A stretch of 64,000 nucleotides of DNA from a virus, in the IMG/VR virus record IMGVR_UViG_3300046777_001793, positions 1 through 64,000 of that record; one strand, written 5' to 3'. The notes beneath the pieces were generated by a model. The model did no database searches, had not been told where the DNA came from, and saw only the letters and a list, made by a program, of their open reading frames with translations. Made by a program: the position numbers and the translations under genes. Shown piece after piece: positions 4,201 through 64,000 of this stretch; the first letter of the stretch is position 1, and the number at the start of each line of letters is the position of its first letter.

Positions 4201-7200
4201 CTGCATCAATCTCTGCAAATCTCGGTTATTCATAGCTTCTACCAAGAATATTACAGGATCATTAAAGAAACCATCATTGATTTGTCCTAGTTCTCTTGTA
4301 GCGGCTTCTTTTGCTTGTTGCATAAGTAATGTTACTTCCCCTGCAAATTCAGGATCAGATATGACTTTTTTAGCAACCTTGTCTTGCAACAAAGCAACAG
4401 TAAACAAACCTTCAAATGATAAACGTGTATTCCTAAATTCAGAACCAGCAAATCTTAAATCAATAGTAGTAACACCATCTTTAAAAGTAATTGGCATTTC
4501 TGCATTGGTAACAAATCTTATTACACCCCCTTTGTCAAGTAACTCTTCTAGTATCTCTACATCTGTAGCTCTTAGGTTTCCTGATTTAAGAACACGTTTA
4601 ATAAGACTCTTACCTGATGGCGTAGATAAGTCTATATCTTCATCCATCTTTAGTCTATACTCTCTTATTATTTCCTTTACTGTTCTATTGTCTTTTTCTG
4701 CTCTATAAGCCCCAGCTCTTGTAATAGATGATTTATCATTAGCAATCTTCTTGTTCTTTACATTCTTGTAAATAGCTTCAATTATTCTGTGTACTTCTGC
4801 TTCTTCTTCCGGAGTAGCTCTTTTATTAGTAACAGCATTATAAATCCTAGATGGCATTATACCTCTTTCCACAAGGTCATCAATCTCATTCATGTCAAAG
4901 ATTAAACCTTTTTCAGTAAGTATCTGCATCAGTTTACTTGCTTTCTTTCTTTCTTCAAAAGCATCTAATGAATCTTTTATTTGAGCTTCAAGTCTTGCAA
5001 TCTTACTCTTATTAGATTTCTCTGCTGCATCCATAAAGCGGTTAGCGTATTCAGGATTGTTTAAGAAGTTGATATGGTCTTGTAAATGCTCATTGTCTTT
5101 TGTTAGCATGTGGTAATCAAATACTGATTCCACAACATCATTTAAAAGTTCAGGATTTCTTCTAAACTTTGGAGTAAATGTAGATGCGTAATCAAGTAAA
5201 GCTCTATTTACCTGGTCATACATTTCTTCAATAGAATCAATGTTACCTTTGTCAGATGCTTTCTTAGCTTCTGAAATACCTTCTTTCAATGCTTTTAATG
5301 CATTAAGTCTTTCCTGTAATGTAGCAAGTTCTTTTTTGCTTTCAGGTCTTGAAGAATTTATATCTTTTATTGATTTAATTTCAGTATTTAACAACTCAAT
5401 ACTTCTATCCATTTCTTTTGTAGATAAAAGTGCTTGTTTGTCTAGTGAATTTAAATCAAGCATAGAAGATGCATTTGCAATTTTTTCTTCTATACTTTTA
5501 GTTCTTTCTAAGTTATTAAGTATTGTAGCATTAGAAAAAAGTAATTCTTTCTTTAATTCTTGAGATGCTTGATACTTATGGTATTTTTCAAAATACTGTG
5601 GATCTTTTTTAGAAAGTAATCTAGGATTAATTGGATCAACAAAGTTCTGATTAATCTCATCATTTACAGCTCTAAGTTTTCTTAATGTTAAAGCTTTACC
5701 TTTTAAGTTAGCTCTAACACCTTCCACATTATCTTCAGTAATATCAGTTCTCTTTAAAGCTTCATTCAAAGTTTGAATATCTGCTTTATTAGCAAGAGCT
5801 TCTAAATGGTCAACCATATCACCATCAGCATTAGAATCAATAAGCATTTTAGCTTGAATGGTGAAAGACTTATCTTGGTAATCTTTTACCTTTTTAATAT
5901 CACCTTCTTTTATTGCTTCTTCTAATTTTTCCTGAATTTCTACTTGTTGGAATAATGGTTTATTGATAACATCATAAGCTTTATCTAAATTTGCTTGAAA
6001 AGTTGCATTTAATATTTTAGCAATCTTTTCATTTCTAAGATTTGCTTGGTCTTGTTGCTCTCTATATGATTTTGATAAACTTCTATATCCTTTACCTAAA
6101 GCAAACTTTTGAACACCTTGAGTAATCATTGAAACAGGAGATGCCATAAAGCCCATTAAAGCACCGGCCCAGAATGTAGTTCCTTCTTGTCCATCTTTAG
6201 GTCTAAATTTAAACTCTAAGTCATTTCCAACAAAATCTACATGATCAGATAAGTCATTAAACAATGTATTAAAATAACCACCTTCATTTTGTTTTGTAGG
6301 TTTTGTTCTTCTTACATAAGCTTGAGCACCTTGAGCAATTGCATCTTGTTCTAACTCTTGAAAACCTTCAGCGTAATTCCCTAATGTTACTCTTGCAAGG
6401 TTAGTAGGATTAAATGTTTTTATTGTCCAATTTTTAAAACCTCTACCAAGATTTATACCTAAGTTTTCTGTAACAAAACTTGCGTTAGCTTTACCAATGT
6501 TACGCATTGTATTTCTACCAGCTTCAACACTTCTCAACCAATTATTATTGAACTTCATGTTTCTGAAAATATTATCAAACGCTATAGCATTAGTAGCATA
6601 TATTAAACCAAAGTTACCCATATAAGTTTGAGTGCGCACTTTGTCAGCTTCTACTCTAAGCAAGTCCATTTGTTCATCTGATAGAGGAGCACCGCCATTT
6701 TGAGCTTTAAGTTCTTTAGTTCTAGTTTCAAGATACTCATCTCTATTCATATCAGCTTCTAATCTTGATTCACCATGAGTCATAGTAAATTTTCTTGCAT
6801 CTCTATATAGAGCACCAGCACCATTAACAGTTTTAACCAAACCATTAATGTCACTCATTTTATCAAGATCTTTTAAAAATGTAGCAGTATTACCAACTGG
6901 GTTTAATCCTTTAAGAATATCAGTTCCAAACTCTTTTGCACCTTTAGCAACTTTTTGACCAAAGTTCATTGTTTGATATGCTTCTTGAGCTCTTTCAATA
7001 TTAGATAAGTCTTGCATGACTTCTAAATGAGTTCTGCCACCACCAGCAATCCTTGCTAATTTACTTGAACCTAATTTAGTAAATGCAGTATTTAATCCTC
7101 TACCAAGTTTACCGCCTGTTAAAAATAAACCAGCACCACCTGTTAAAGCACCAAGAGCAAGTTCTTCAGCAGCAACCGCACCAATAATACCAGCAGTATA

Positions 7201-59744: not shown

Positions 59745-60253
59745 TCCTTCTTTTTAAATTTTTCAAACACATCAAACACCTTATTCTCAAAAACCTTTCT
59801 CTTTCTTGACAAAAATGGATTCAGCATATAACACACACGCACCTCACCATAAATCCTACCCTTAATCTGATATAACACCCCAGCAGAAACCAAACGTGTA
59901 ATCAACTTCATAAACATGCTCTTTGATGAAATCTCTAAATACTTTTGTAGAGATTCATTTGTATGAGGTATAGTATTATTAAATACAATGTTCAAAGGAG
60001 TCTTTGTAACAACACTCATCTTAATCACATTTGCAAGATCACTATTGTTCAACAACTTTGTTAATTCCAATAAAGCTTCAGTTTCTAATACAGCATAATC
60101 ATTAGAAGTAATCATACTCATACCAGTTTCCTTACTCACATTAACTCCTTCAGGAACTTCAGCCAATACCTTAACCTCACCTGTAACCTCATCTACATAA
60201 GATTCCAAATCTAACTCCACGTTACTCTTTAAGGACTTTACTTTAGCACTCAT
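59732..60253 (-). CDS. RepL-like replication initiator (173 aa)
   Basis: Helix-turn-helix region near residues 95-150: LQKYLEISSKSMFMKLITRLVSAGVLYQIKGRIYGEVRVCYMLNPFLSRKRK. A two-helix recognition unit followed by a wing and the xYMLNP sequence matches RepL-type plasmid initiators (YMxNP before a final basic segment). The gene follows four iterons and a -7-like promoter box, as in iteron plasmids that autoregulate their initiator. A repressor-only role is an alternative. RepL-type genes have been noted in crAss-like phages. Confidence 0.65.
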   Translation of the reverse strand: MSAKVKSLKSNVELDLESYVDEVTGEVKVLAEVPEGVNVSKETGMSMITSNDYAVLETEALLELTKLLNNSDLANVIKMSVVTKTPLNIVFNNTIPHTNESLQKYLEISSKSMFMKLITRLVSAGVLYQIKGRIYGEVRVCYMLNPFLSRKRKVFENKVFDVFEKFKKKECIE

Positions 60254-60273
60254 CTGTCATTTCATTTACAGGA

Positions 60274-60281
60274 CAAATATA
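60274..60281 (-). promoter_or_regulatory. -7 element (TATATTTG) of the RepL-like gene
   Basis: Minus-strand TATATTTG 21 bases before ATG 60253. Iteron 1 begins two bases upstream (60283), so a protein bound there would cover the promoter. Confidence 0.5.
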
Positions 60282-60282
60282 A

Positions 60283-60379
60283 CTAAAAATAACACTTTTG
60301 TGCTAAAAATAACACTTTATTTTTTACCCAGGTGCTAAAAATAACACCTGTGAGCCTTGTGAGGTGCTAAAAATAACAC
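60283..60379. repeat. Four iterons CTAAAAATAACAC
   Basis: Exact 13-bp copies at 60283-60295, 60303-60315, 60335-60347 and 60367-60379, all in the same orientation. Start spacings are 20, 32 and 32 bp, close to 2, 3 and 3 helical turns. Copies 3 and 4 extend to an imperfect dyad (AGGTG before and CACCT after). Typical arrangement for iteron initiator binding. Confidence 0.85.
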
Positions 60380-60560
60380 CTGATAAAAACCCCCACAACC
60401 CTTGAAAACATTGGGCTATCCCCCCATCCTAAGCAAAAACGTACTTATTCTTATTTAGGAGCACATGATGCTAACGCTATAAAGAGAAATTCATGTGTGT
60501 GGCGGAGAATGGGTATATTGAAAATTATGGATATAATGGTGTGTATGGGTCCTTCCATTA

Positions 60561-60577
60561 TTTGCCCCCCGGGCAAA
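60561..60577. repeat. GC-rich palindrome TTTGCCC-CCC-GGGCAAA
   Basis: Perfect 7-bp arms with a 3-base centre, unusual in this AT-rich genome; may be a single-strand initiation or protein-binding hairpin in the origin region. Confidence 0.6.
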
Positions 60578-60774
60578 CACAATGTCAGGTGTACCCCCTA
60601 GGCAAGCAGCAGGCACAGAGGTTATTGTTATAGCATAATGACATTAATTTTCTCCAGGGAAGAAGTTTGTGTGCCAGAGGAGAAGGGTGCTTGTCAAGAG
60701 AGTGCTTGGGAAGCAGAGCAAGAGAAGAGAGTGACACAGGAAGGAAGATGCAGGGCAAGGTCTTATTCTATATT

Positions 60775-60796
60775 AATGACCTCTCGGTCATTTTAA
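60775..60796 (+). promoter_or_regulatory. Hairpin with T-run upstream of the first plus-strand gene
   Basis: AATGACC-tctc-GGTCATT followed by TTTT, ending 12 bases before ATG 60808. Could be a transcription attenuator or terminator guarding plus-strand genes. Confidence 0.5.
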
Positions 60797-60807
60797 ATTT
60801 TATAATT

Positions 60808-60990
60808 ATGAAAAATTTTTCAGTAAGAGAAATGATTATCATACTAAATGTTGTGGTAATCATTGCATTAGCAGGTTCATTGACTGCTTTATGCATTACA
60901 ACTAATGTTGTGTTTGTGTACACCTTTGTGTGCACAGCACCAGTTGCTATGCTTTGTGTTTTAATACTTGATAAGTATGAGAAACAATAA
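60808..60990 (+). CDS. Small two-TM membrane protein (60 aa)
   Basis: ATG 60808 (MKNFSVREMIIILNVVVIIALAGS) follows the hairpin; the longer frame upstream is Arg/Gly/Glu-rich from the purine island and unlikely to be translated. Two hydrophobic segments (residues about 9-30 and 34-55). Overlaps the lipoprotein start by 14 bases. Function unknown. Confidence 0.55.
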   Translation: MKNFSVREMIIILNVVVIIALAGSLTALCITTNVVFVYTFVCTAPVAMLCVLILDKYEKQ

Positions 60991-61282
60991 TTTGAAAAGG
61001 GGAGCTTCCGTAGGGAAGTTCTACCTTTACACTATGGTTATTATAACCATAGTATTAATATTTATAATGAGTTCTTGTTCTAAAGGAACATACTATAAGT
61101 ATGCCTACATAGATTGTAGGAAACAAGATGTGGTTACAACTCATTTGATTCCAGTTAACCACACCTTATCTGATGCAGAGATTAACCAAAGACTCTCTGT
61201 ATATAGAGCTGAAAGAAACAGTTATGTCCTTATGGATACAATTGTATTGGAAACAGCTTCTACATTATTTATGTTAAAATAA
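60977..61282 (+). CDS. Lipoprotein (101 aa)
   Basis: Start at ATG 60977 (MRNNNLKRG). Signal region FYLYTMVIITIVLIFIMSSC gives a lipobox-like Ser-Ser-Cys near residue 34, then SKGTYYKY. The mature part is soluble with RLSVYRAERNSYVLMDTIVLE. Probably exported to the outer membrane by the host pathway. An 11-bp palindrome (61031-61053) lies in its coding region. Confidence 0.6.
   Translation: MRNNNLKRGASVGKFYLYTMVIITIVLIFIMSSCSKGTYYKYAYIDCRKQDVVTTHLIPVNHTLSDAEINQRLSVYRAERNSYVLMDTIVLETASTLFMLK
61031..61053 (+). repeat. Perfect inverted repeat inside the lipoprotein gene
   Basis: ACTATGGTTAT and ATAACCATAGT separated by one base. The stem lies in the part encoding the signal peptide, so it may control translation. 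Confidence 0.6.
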
Positions 61283-61287
61283 TTATT

Positions 61288-61455
61288 ATGAAAAAGAAAA
61301 TAGAAAAGGCACTATTATATATAGTGTCAATCATACTAGTGCTTGTTGGATTAACAGGCACTATGTTACACAACCAACTAATTGGTTGTGTTAGTTTATT
61401 AATGTTCATTGCAGGAATAATTGCCTTTATAGGCACAATGAACAAGTATGAGTAA
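61288..61455 (+). CDS. Small two-TM membrane protein (55 aa)
   Basis: MKKKIEKALLYIVSIILVLVGLTGT followed by a second hydrophobic part (CVSLLMFIAGIIAFIGTM) and NKYE. The C-terminal KYE parallels the upstream 60-aa protein (DKYEKQ); the two may be paralogues. Short palindromes CACTAT/ATAGTG (61310, 61321) and CAACCAA/TTGGTTG (61371, 61382) occur in it. Confidence 0.55.
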   Translation: MKKKIEKALLYIVSIILVLVGLTGTMLHNQLIGCVSLLMFIAGIIAFIGTMNKYE

Positions 61456-61518
61456 GACATTCTTGACCACGCATTCTACTACGGTAGGTGTGTGGTCTTA
61501 CGCTTTAGGACAAACGTG

Positions 61519-62214
61519 TAACCTTTAATTCTATATCAATTACCTTTGGTAATTTTCCCAGTGCGTTACATTCACACCCATTGATAGGCTACGCCTATCA
61601 TCACCCACATCAAAGACAAGGCACACCAACAAAGAGATTACTATCATCAGCACCCAATGTAACACAGCAATGCACCGGCCTTCGGCCTATGCCTATCGGC
61701 ATCAACAATGTAATGTAATCTTACATTCTATACCAATTACCTTCGGTAATTACTTATTACAAAAAGTCCTGTTGCTGATTAACTGAACAAATGATGTTTC
61801 AGCAACAGGCATTATGTCGTTGTAGGTGTATTATTATAACCTTCTGTTTGCAGTTTTAGAATAAAACTGTTGTTTGTATGTTAGGCCTAAACATTCACCA
61901 CCAATACCATTAAGCGTATTGGGTATTCTCATTCAAGCAGATTGTATAAAGCAATGTTAAAAGGGTTGCAACCTTATGAGAATACAACAACTATGGGGGA
62001 AAGTCCTTTAAGGATACCAATTATTACCGTCTAACATTTGGTAATAACGGTGCGTAAAGCCATAGCGTGAATTAGAGATAGCCCTGATTATAGGGTGTTT
62101 GAGAATGAGTGACCAAGGTTAGTGGTTAGAGCATTTGGCTAATTAAGTGTCAACGAGATAGACACTATTTTTTCCTCACAACCTTTCATTCTAAACCAAC
62201 TACCTTCGGTAGTT
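61519..62214 (+). repeat. Three-copy hairpin repeat
   Basis: Palindromes AATTACC-TTT-GGTAATT (61538-61554), AATTACC-TTC-GGTAATT (61735-61751) and AACTACC-TTC-GGTAGTT (62198-62214), each preceded by ATTCTAwAyCA. The third copy changes a T-A pair to C-G on both arms, a compensatory change. Copies 1 and 3 also share an AACCTTTmATTCTA lead. Confidence 0.75.
62146..62173 (+). terminator. Intrinsic terminator within the putative RNA
   Basis: Plus strand AGTGTC (62146-62151) and GACACT (62161-62166), then a T-run (62168-62173). Confidence 0.75.
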
Positions 62215-62339
62215 CTTACGCTACGCGTCTTATGCTTTTGCATATATTCCTAAAATTTGGTTAGGGAATTAAAATAATTAACCAGCATTTATTAATTTTT
62301 AGAAACCTTGTGGTGTATAGGTCAACCCAATCTACGGTA

Positions 62340-63014
62340 ATGGAAACTTTAAACACATTAACCGCAAAAAAAGAGTTCATTAAAAACAATTTGGACAAAT
62401 TGTCTGATGAAACTCGCCCATCTGCATCTCAAATTAATGCTTTCAAGGCTGGTGACACAAACCACGTTGATGCTTTAGTAGAAGAGATTAACTCATTTGT
62501 TGCACCTGCAAATGATGTTATAGCAGATGAAACTGTTGAAAAAGTTGATACACTTGTGTATGAAACATTAACAACAGAATCAGGTGCAAGTGTTGAAGTT
62601 GTTTGGTTGCCATTCCTTAAATATGGAATGCGACAAGACAAACAAACACGCAAGGTTAGAACTAATTACCAATTTGGTTTTGGCTCTAACATAGTAACCA
62701 TTCAAAACTCTTTACTTGACCCAATCAAGAAGAGCATTGAAGTAGGTGCAATGTTCCCTATCAAGGTTGAAACTATTCAGCCTATTGTAGCAGAACGCAC
62801 TTATGGTTACGGTAAACAAGTATTCTCCGCAGGTATTGCTGAATTTGCTTGTGAGTTGTTGCTTGATGCACGTGCAGAGAAAATGGAAGAGTTGGAAGAA
62901 CTTTCTCAATTATCTGCGGAAGCACAAGAGATGGTTATTAAAGCAACCGCTTTAAGCCAAGCAGAGCAATACTTATTGAAGAAAGGTATTAAGTTACCTT
63001 CATCAATGAAATAG
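62340..63014 (+). CDS. Early protein of unknown function (224 aa)
   Basis: ATG 62340 (METLNTLTAKKEFIK) is preferred over an upstream ATG at 62310, which adds ten residues of poor quality. Alpha/beta protein with a helical C-terminus (ARAEKMEELEELSQLSAEAQEMVIKATALSQAEQYLLKKG pattern). No motif recognised. It is better ordered and less AT-biased than the intergenic flanks. Ends with TAG. Confidence 0.65.
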   Translation: METLNTLTAKKEFIKNNLDKLSDETRPSASQINAFKAGDTNHVDALVEEINSFVAPANDVIADETVEKVDTLVYETLTTESGASVEVVWLPFLKYGMRQDKQTRKVRTNYQFGFGSNIVTIQNSLLDPIKKSIEVGAMFPIKVETIQPIVAERTYGYGKQVFSAGIAEFACELLLDARAEKMEELEELSQLSAEAQEMVIKATALSQAEQYLLKKGIKLPSSMK

Positions 63015-63285
63015 AGATAATGGAGTGGTGTAACAACCACTCCTAATCTTTTTTGTGGGAGCTCTTTGAAACCTCCGGTTTCAGCCGCAAGGCAACCTTC
63101 CCTGAAATTACAGGCTGATTGCGTGTGTAGCGTAACGTATGGATGTTTAAATTACCGTTCCCATAATATGCAGGGTGTGACAATAACACCCAGAAATTAC
63201 CGTTCCCATGCGTGTGTAGCAACGCTTTAAAGGATAAATTACTATCATCATAACACAGTATCACATTTAAAAAACCCTAGAAAAA
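63015..63285. other. Intergenic region with repeated boxes
   Basis: Contains the palindrome GAAACC-TCC-GGTTTC (63068-63082) and two pairs of direct repeats: GCGTGTGTAGC (63121-63131 and 63210-63220) and AAATTACCGTTCCCAT (63149-63164 and 63194-63209). It could carry operators or a small RNA. No gene is supported. Confidence 0.55.
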
Positions 63286-63468
63286 ATGAACAATAACTTA
63301 ATGTTAACTGAAATAACACTCAACCCAAAAGAGTATTACCAGTTCAGATTACTAGCATTACAGCACAGAGTAATGTTCACAGTAGAGTGGACCAAACAAG
63401 GTGCATTAGTTTCTTGTGAAACTCCATTCCTAATTGCATTTGGTTACATCAATCAAGTAGAATTTTAA
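63286..63468 (+). CDS. Small early protein (60 aa)
   Basis: MNNNLMLTEITLNPKEYYQFRLLALQHRVMF... Soluble, not recognised. Leader contains AACCCTAGAAAAA, also found before the next gene. Good codon use for the genome. Confidence 0.5.
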   Translation: MNNNLMLTEITLNPKEYYQFRLLALQHRVMFTVEWTKQGALVSCETPFLIAFGYINQVEF

Positions 63469-63751
63469 TTAAATGACTATCAGCATTTTACATTTTGCCT
63501 TTTTACCTGTTTTCGCTTTTATATAGGCATTTTGTAATTTGCTGATTAATAACCGGTTAGTCTACTTGTTACACCGGTAAAACACAACAAAAATTACCAC
63601 TTTCAACTAAGAATTTAATTGATAACACACAAATTGTAGCAGATTGTGGTAAATTTTTTTGTGTAACGTGTTGATTTGTAAGTGTTTGGCGACCAGTCAC
63701 CCAAATCATCATATTTCATAAAACCCCTAAACCCTAAAAAATTTTAATAAT
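63469..63751. other. AT-rich intergenic region
   Basis: No gene. ACCGGT occurs twice, at about 63550-63555 and 63573-63578, and the AACCCTAAAAAAT leader lies before ATG 63752. No stem with a T-run was found. Confidence 0.4.
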
Positions 63752-64000
63752 ATGGCAATAAGACAGTTTATTACAGGCTTCAAGACCTTTGTAGTATTGA
63801 CTACTTGTATGTTAGCAATGCAGAACTTATACACAACAATACAGTATGGTAGGCTTAATGCTTACTATGACTTTGATGTTATAGATTGGTCTTTAATGAC
63901 TATATGTGTTCTCTTTAACTTATCTATTAGTGTTATTGATGCTATAACAACCACAGAAACGTGTATAATACAAACAGATACAGACACTTTATCATATCTG
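63752..64000 (+). CDS. Membrane protein, partial at window end
   Basis: MAIRQFITGFKTFVVLTTCMLAMQNLYTT starts a hydrophobic protein with two likely segments (FKTFVVLTTCMLAM and WSLMTICVLFNLSISVI). Continues past the window. Leader shares AACCCTA-type sequence with the 63286 gene. Confidence 0.5.
   Translation, partial: MAIRQFITGFKTFVVLTTCMLAMQNLYTTIQYGRLNAYYDFDVIDWSLMTICVLFNLSISVIDAITTTETCIIQTDTDTLSYL

Follow-up and report, generated by a model that had tools for sequence, protein, structure and literature searches.

Directly after the switch from late minus-strand genes (to 60253) to early plus-strand genes (from about 60.7 kb), a crAss-like phage genome contains 879 nt without genes (61461-62339), which raises the question whether this tract encodes a structured RNA and, if so, of which kind. 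The window analysed here, a stretch of 64,000 nt, is part of a 120,528-bp IMG/VR virus record (IMGVR_UViG_3300046777_001793). A preliminary description had proposed one large, ornate RNA spanning 61456-62339, comparable to the giant phage RNAs GOLLD and ROOL. Its starting point, the absence of genes over about 880 bases, was confirmed, as no open reading frame of at least 60 aa was detected on either strand in 61460-62310.

The phage belongs to the Crassvirales and is an aquatic crAss-like phage: its major capsid protein scores 98.7 bits against the Pfam Crassvirus capsid family, a match to the crAss muzzle family was obtained for one large late protein, and its terminase shares about 25% identity with those of uncultured crAss-like phages. 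Relatives of the capsid protein were found in hundreds of environmental viral contigs, and a blastn search in INPHARED revealed no close DNA relatives of the window. The top capsid match among the named phage records was Leptolyngbya phage Lbo-JY46 (PP438436.1, locus L313; 27% identity). Since the host of this phage is a cyanobacterium, the hosts of the aquatic group are perhaps not all Bacteroidota. The protein encoded downstream of the tract (224 aa) had no homologue in 30 related records and was thus dropped as an anchor for finding related loci.

Where the preliminary description had counted at least eight perfect inverted repeats of 6-11 bp, we detected 37 of at least 6 bp in 61456-62339, a 2.6-fold excess over dinucleotide-preserving shuffles (14.1 +/- 3.6), and 14 of at least 7 bp (shuffles 3.6 +/- 2.0). 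The longest, of 11 and 10 bp, both fall within RNA modules that proved to be conserved in the comparison with relatives. The entire tract also folds more stably than its shuffles (z = -5.2 on the plus and -5.1 on the minus strand). However, folding energy is non-discriminating here, since the neighbouring, mostly coding DNA (61001-61480) folds equally well or better, with z = -5.6 to -7.2 in places, and the relatives therefore had to decide on structure. Two perfect palindromes (61031-61053 and 61368-61391) are located in this stably folding coding DNA.

A DNA search of 30 related records yielded three short matches, all of them at window positions 61961-61987. The common sequence around these matches, UCUCAUYCAAGCAG ... 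AAGGGUUGCAACCUURUGAGA, defines module 1 (Table 1), whose 23-mer core occurs in at least 120 stretches of viral contigs; at least 119 distinct instances of the module were found in aquatic (lake, ocean) viral contigs. None of the contigs from 84,980 cellular species contained the core, the module sequences were detected in none of the INPHARED phages, and a model search of two named relatives was also negative.

Table 1. Predicted features of the gene-free tract and its downstream gene (window coordinates)
Feature	Position	Strand	Remarks
38-nt repeat, copy 1	61517..61554	+	hairpin AAUUACC-UUU-GGUAAUU
38-nt repeat, copy 2	61714..61751	+	immediately 5' of module 5; placement read from sequence
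Module 5	61768..61809	+	11-bp stem 61768-61778 / 61799-61809, conserved loop UUAACUGAACAAAUGAUGUU
Module 1	61924..61984	+	covariance model match 47.1 bits, window row in the training set of the model; independent support from BLAST-found relatives
P1 (outer stem of module 1)	61924-61931/61977-61984	+	
J1/2	61937-61940	+	GCAG; junction strand of module 1
P2	61941-61944/61952-61955	+	AUUG/CAAU, short in the window
P3	61961-61964/61972-61975	+	AAGG/CCUU, loop GUUGCAA
Pseudoknot	61966-61969 (UUGC)	+	J1/2 GCAG with UUGC of the P3 loop
Module 4	61984..62068	+	linker ACAACA; closing stem CUAUGG 61991-61996 / CCAUAG 62060-62065
Inner hairpins of module 4	62003-62015 and 62016-62051	+	
Intrinsic terminator	62146..62173	+	AGUGUC-N9-GACACU-A-UUUUUU; probable 3' end
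38-nt repeat, copy 3	62177..62214	+	immediately past the terminator; leader of the 224-aa gene
Next gene, 224 aa	62340..63014	+	start ATG 62340; weak PHROG 899 match, E=4e-4

Module 1 is predicted to form a junction that is locked by a loop-to-junction pseudoknot and bears an exchangeable arm, P2. With P1 left open, the outer stem occurs as UACUCUCA/UGAGAGUA, UACUCUUA/UAAGAGUA, UACUCUUG/CAAGAGUA, UACUCCUA/UAGGAGUA or UGUUCUUG/CAAGAACA instead of the UAUUCUCA/UGAGAAUA of the window, and six of its eight pairs show changes on both sides. Its cells are paired in 98.9% of cases (94.2% when shuffled, 32-45% when slid), a percentage that is inflated, and the variety of pair types less so, by the choice of instances with a near-complete P1. 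The two sides of the pseudoknot were not selected for mutual pairing, so that their support, like that of the relatives found by BLAST, is independent of this P1-dependent collection. GCAR in J1/2 faces UUGC in the loop in 106 of the instances listed, UAG faces UUA in three (L098, L118, L178) and GUAG faces UUAC in one (L112), with no crossed combination among the instances examined. Taking furthermore into account that the helix includes a G-U pair in nearly all instances, the pseudoknot appears to act as RNA. P3 is near-invariant, and the hairpin itself shows no covariation. A kissing dimer via the palindromic UUGCAA of the P3 loop was rejected as loops with UUAGAA or UUACAG lose the palindrome yet keep the pairing with J1/2.

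Module 5 consists of a stem with a conserved 20-nt loop and is followed by a conserved UUAUGU. An 18-nt loop sequence (at window position 61781) was found in other viral contigs, although some of these matches are due to chance and lie in coding DNA of unrelated phages. The stem sequence differs each time, and in nine of nine members, one of which (L267, a 262-kb contig) may be a chance match since it is without the typical 3' context, each strand pairs best with its own partner (mean -12.7 kcal/mol, compared to -5.2 kcal/mol for mismatched partners; n=9). Stem conservation with compensatory changes in related phages, named as decisive in the preliminary description, was thus found in P1, in the pseudoknot and in module 5.

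On its 3' side module 1 is joined to module 4. Window positions 61961-62073 match L111/L098 at 74% over 113 nt (E=1.7e-11), and the unit of module 1, ACAACA and module 4 occurs in six lineages (the window, L111/L274, L151/L272, L158, L261 and L308). An automatic alignment gave no covariation in the closing stem of module 4. All six units are followed by an intrinsic terminator, the T run of which begins 27-101 nt past module 4. The terminator of the window, already noted near the 3' end in the preliminary description, was missed by our automatic scan because of its 9-nt loop.

These features suggest an RNA in the order module 5, module 1, module 4 and terminator, but a smaller one than proposed. 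Since the likely transcript ends at the terminator, 62178-62339 is probably not part of it, and 61456-61755 shows no conservation in the relatives found. The tract has a length of 879 nt, but its conserved parts and the terminator delimit about 250-420 nt, and judging from the sequence the RNA is probably of this size, with a predicted end at about 62173, and not 700-880 nt long. The structured character of the proposed RNA is retained, but it is probably a series of short modules and not one giant molecule. As read from the sequence, the start of the module 1 and 4 unit in L158 and L151 closely follows a terminator-like hairpin that belongs to the gene before it, which would fit a separate small gene or a processed segment.

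The 38-nt repeat forms a hairpin of 7 bp with a 3-nt loop and is present in only three copies in the 120.5-kb record, bordering the gene-free units. Copy 2 may possibly represent the start of the RNA unit, and it is a matter of speculation that the repeats serve as promoter hairpins for a virion RNA polymerase. A scan for sigma-70-type promoters predicted fewer sites than in shuffles and identified no promoter. The three hairpins, of UUCG type, were rejected as part of the conserved RNA, as a variant-tolerant pattern detected none in viral contigs. A second gene-free stretch (63040-63290) contains repeated ATTACCGTTCCCAT.

The insert between J1/2 and P3 that holds P2 ranges from 5 to 156 nt and comprises 18 nt in the window. 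Among the 119 instances listed we distinguished 55 insert classes and 75 classes of 3' flank. The biggest insert classes (12, 12, 10 and 8 members) are combined with 11, 11, 9 and 8 flank classes, respectively, and the biggest flank class (8 members) with 8 insert classes. Arms and 3' flanks thus appear to combine almost freely in the manner of cassettes and to be swapped by the phages. In an aligned P2 class of 10 members compensatory changes were detected in 6 of 14 pairs, which together with the combinations of inserts and flanks indicates that the arms are at least partly structured domains swapped between loci. When all inserts are taken together, pairing of the two ends with their own partner is only slightly favoured (p = 0.02), arguing against P2 being one uniform stem. 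CCAAGCAGG and CAAGGGUUGCAACCUUG are candidate sites of recombination breakpoints.

Our best guess is an early RNA that acts in trans as a scaffold and bears a swappable arm. To this reading, a structured noncoding phage RNA of the early block, built from separable modules with an exchangeable arm and acting in trans instead of switching the next gene, we assign a probability of roughly 60%. The RNA would be transcribed early along with the gene block and end at about 62173, and module 1 would serve as a rigid scaffold presenting an arm that is replaced via recombination between phages. The RNA may then act as a scaffold or decoy; action in trans is preferred since the terminator separates it from the next gene in the window.

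The main rival, which we consider rather unlikely, is a cis-acting processing or leader element of a polycistronic early mRNA, such as a module for processing or ribozyme self-cleavage, or a structure between genes that confers 5' or 3' stability. Module 1 indeed hardly ever overlaps genes and nearly always shares their strand, as 110 of 113 instances are located outside open reading frames of at least 100 aa and 87 of 88 have the next gene of at least 100 aa in the same orientation; this also fits the preferred reading. In several relatives it lies about 40 nt ahead of a start codon, which leaves no room for a terminator and suits a leader or processing element; furthermore, tandem copies occur in L112, and in the early region of one relative a Hatchet self-cleaving ribozyme (L147:10327-10463, 82.2 bits) precedes module 1 by about 700 nt. 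However, what follows the unit in six lineages is a terminator and not a gene, and the 1-4 copies per genome are mostly clustered at one place instead of being distributed over many gene junctions. In several genomes this place lies a short distance past the late/early switch and is flanked on either side by homologous genes. Neither the window nor module 1 matches an Rfam model of a known self-cleaving ribozyme (E up to 5). For a leader or riboswitch one would expect a single conserved gene family immediately downstream and in the same transcript, whereas here a terminator precedes the next gene, the 3' flanks differ between phages and the 224-aa protein had no homologue in the 30 related records.

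Other elements were observed in the related phages. Module 2, likewise conserved (UGCACCA, a hairpin with a CCCAAGG loop, a variable arm and GAGUGCAGAGGG) is located at L107:3650-3850 and 4770-4850, on both sides of a GOLLD homologue, and at L151:8140-8290, and in it UGCAC/GUGCA alternates with UGUAC/GUACA. Mimicry of a Cas13b repeat, which the module 2 stem presumably resembles, was set aside as this stem varies between phages. Module 3 (CCACAAGGUUUCAGGCAUAAC..UGUAAAGCAG..GUUGACUUGUGG; L151:7663-7720 and, on the minus strand, L089:605-660) is often found directly 5' of module 1, and both of its stems apparently covary. Two related phages (L241:5010-5095, minus strand; L273:8497-8582) possess a tRNA-like gene for which an odd anticodon of 2 bases (tt) was called; in L241 it lies within the gene-free tract holding module 1.

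GOLLD exceeds about 800 nt, comprises a 5' cap and a 3' ring domain and forms a homo-multimeric nanocage. The structures of GOLLD and ROOL have been solved; to our knowledge, their function is not known. The Rfam family of GOLLD is RF02032 (Kretsch et al. 2025, PMC12286853). We also considered module 1 as the upstream domain of a GOLLD-type nanocage RNA, the 3' domain of which has been lost or has diverged in the window. GOLLD homologues below the gathering score were detected in crAss-like contigs (L107:4367-4761, 100.8 bits; L090:317-709, minus strand, 85.2 bits), where the GOLLD 3' domain follows module 1 at a distance of about 700-800 nt on the same strand and in one gene-free tract (L107 and L090/L123). 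In the corresponding early block of L281, from the same phage as L090, module 1 is followed downstream by the homologue, in the same order as in L107. The likeness to GOLLD in the preliminary description is consequently supported with respect to setting, but not an identity with GOLLD or ROOL. In the window no Rfam family, GOLLD and ROOL included, matched at the gathering score, and searching 60200-64000 up to E=5 yielded chance-level matches only, with no GOLLD, ROOL or ribozyme among them; a structured RNA without a recognised match had been expected. A search of the whole record and of the module 1 genomes, less sensitive and under-reporting in genome-wide counts since it missed the known copy in the L090 genome (G018), gave no GOLLD match in the record or in most of these genomes. 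Considering also the absence of the 23-mer from 84,980 cellular genomes and of the module sequences from INPHARED phages, a GOLLD remnant seems highly improbable.

Similarly improbable is a DNA-level element (replication origin, promoter hairpins or recombination site) with incidental RNA structure, since despite the equally stable folding of both strands, the confinement of the three 38-nt hairpin repeats to the tract and the exchange of P2 cassettes between flanks, in which the conserved core could help by serving as a site of recombination, the covariation and G-U pair of a loop-junction pseudoknot are meaningless for duplex DNA and the strand is fixed relative to the genes.

The trans-acting RNA may be part of a combinatorial system of aquatic crAss-like phages, a possibility that we put forward tentatively. 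Module 1 would provide a pseudoknotted socket, and phages would exchange both its structured P2 arm and its 3' partner, which may be module 2, 4 or 5 or a GOLLD RNA, the arm perhaps being the specific and rapidly selected part of an early RNA effector, for example a decoy or inhibitor of a host factor. A swapped part on a conserved scaffold points to what is selected, and module 1 offers a short RNA (about 60-130 nt) open to synthesis and testing.

Absent from Rfam and from the isolate-phage and cellular collections searched, the family appears to be previously uncatalogued; a literature search, with most subscription journals outside its reach, revealed no description of the module RNA, and an earlier one is possible. 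More than 100 lake and ocean phage sequences have pieces of this structured RNA in common. The Hatchet ribozyme (RF02678) is likewise a small conserved RNA in the same early region of L147 but differs in sequence and architecture, with no match in the window or module 1. ROOL is similar as a structured phage noncoding RNA whose function is not known, but its Rfam model does not match the window. With GOLLD, to which the new family is tied by position in two relatives, it shares phage-encoded, aquatic noncoding RNA with many stems and modular domains. In contrast to GOLLD, its modules were found neither in the cellular genomes nor in the isolate phages searched, and modules 1, 4 and 5 of the window are short, separable and terminator-ended; an arm swapped between otherwise different RNAs is a feature not familiar from GOLLD or ROOL.
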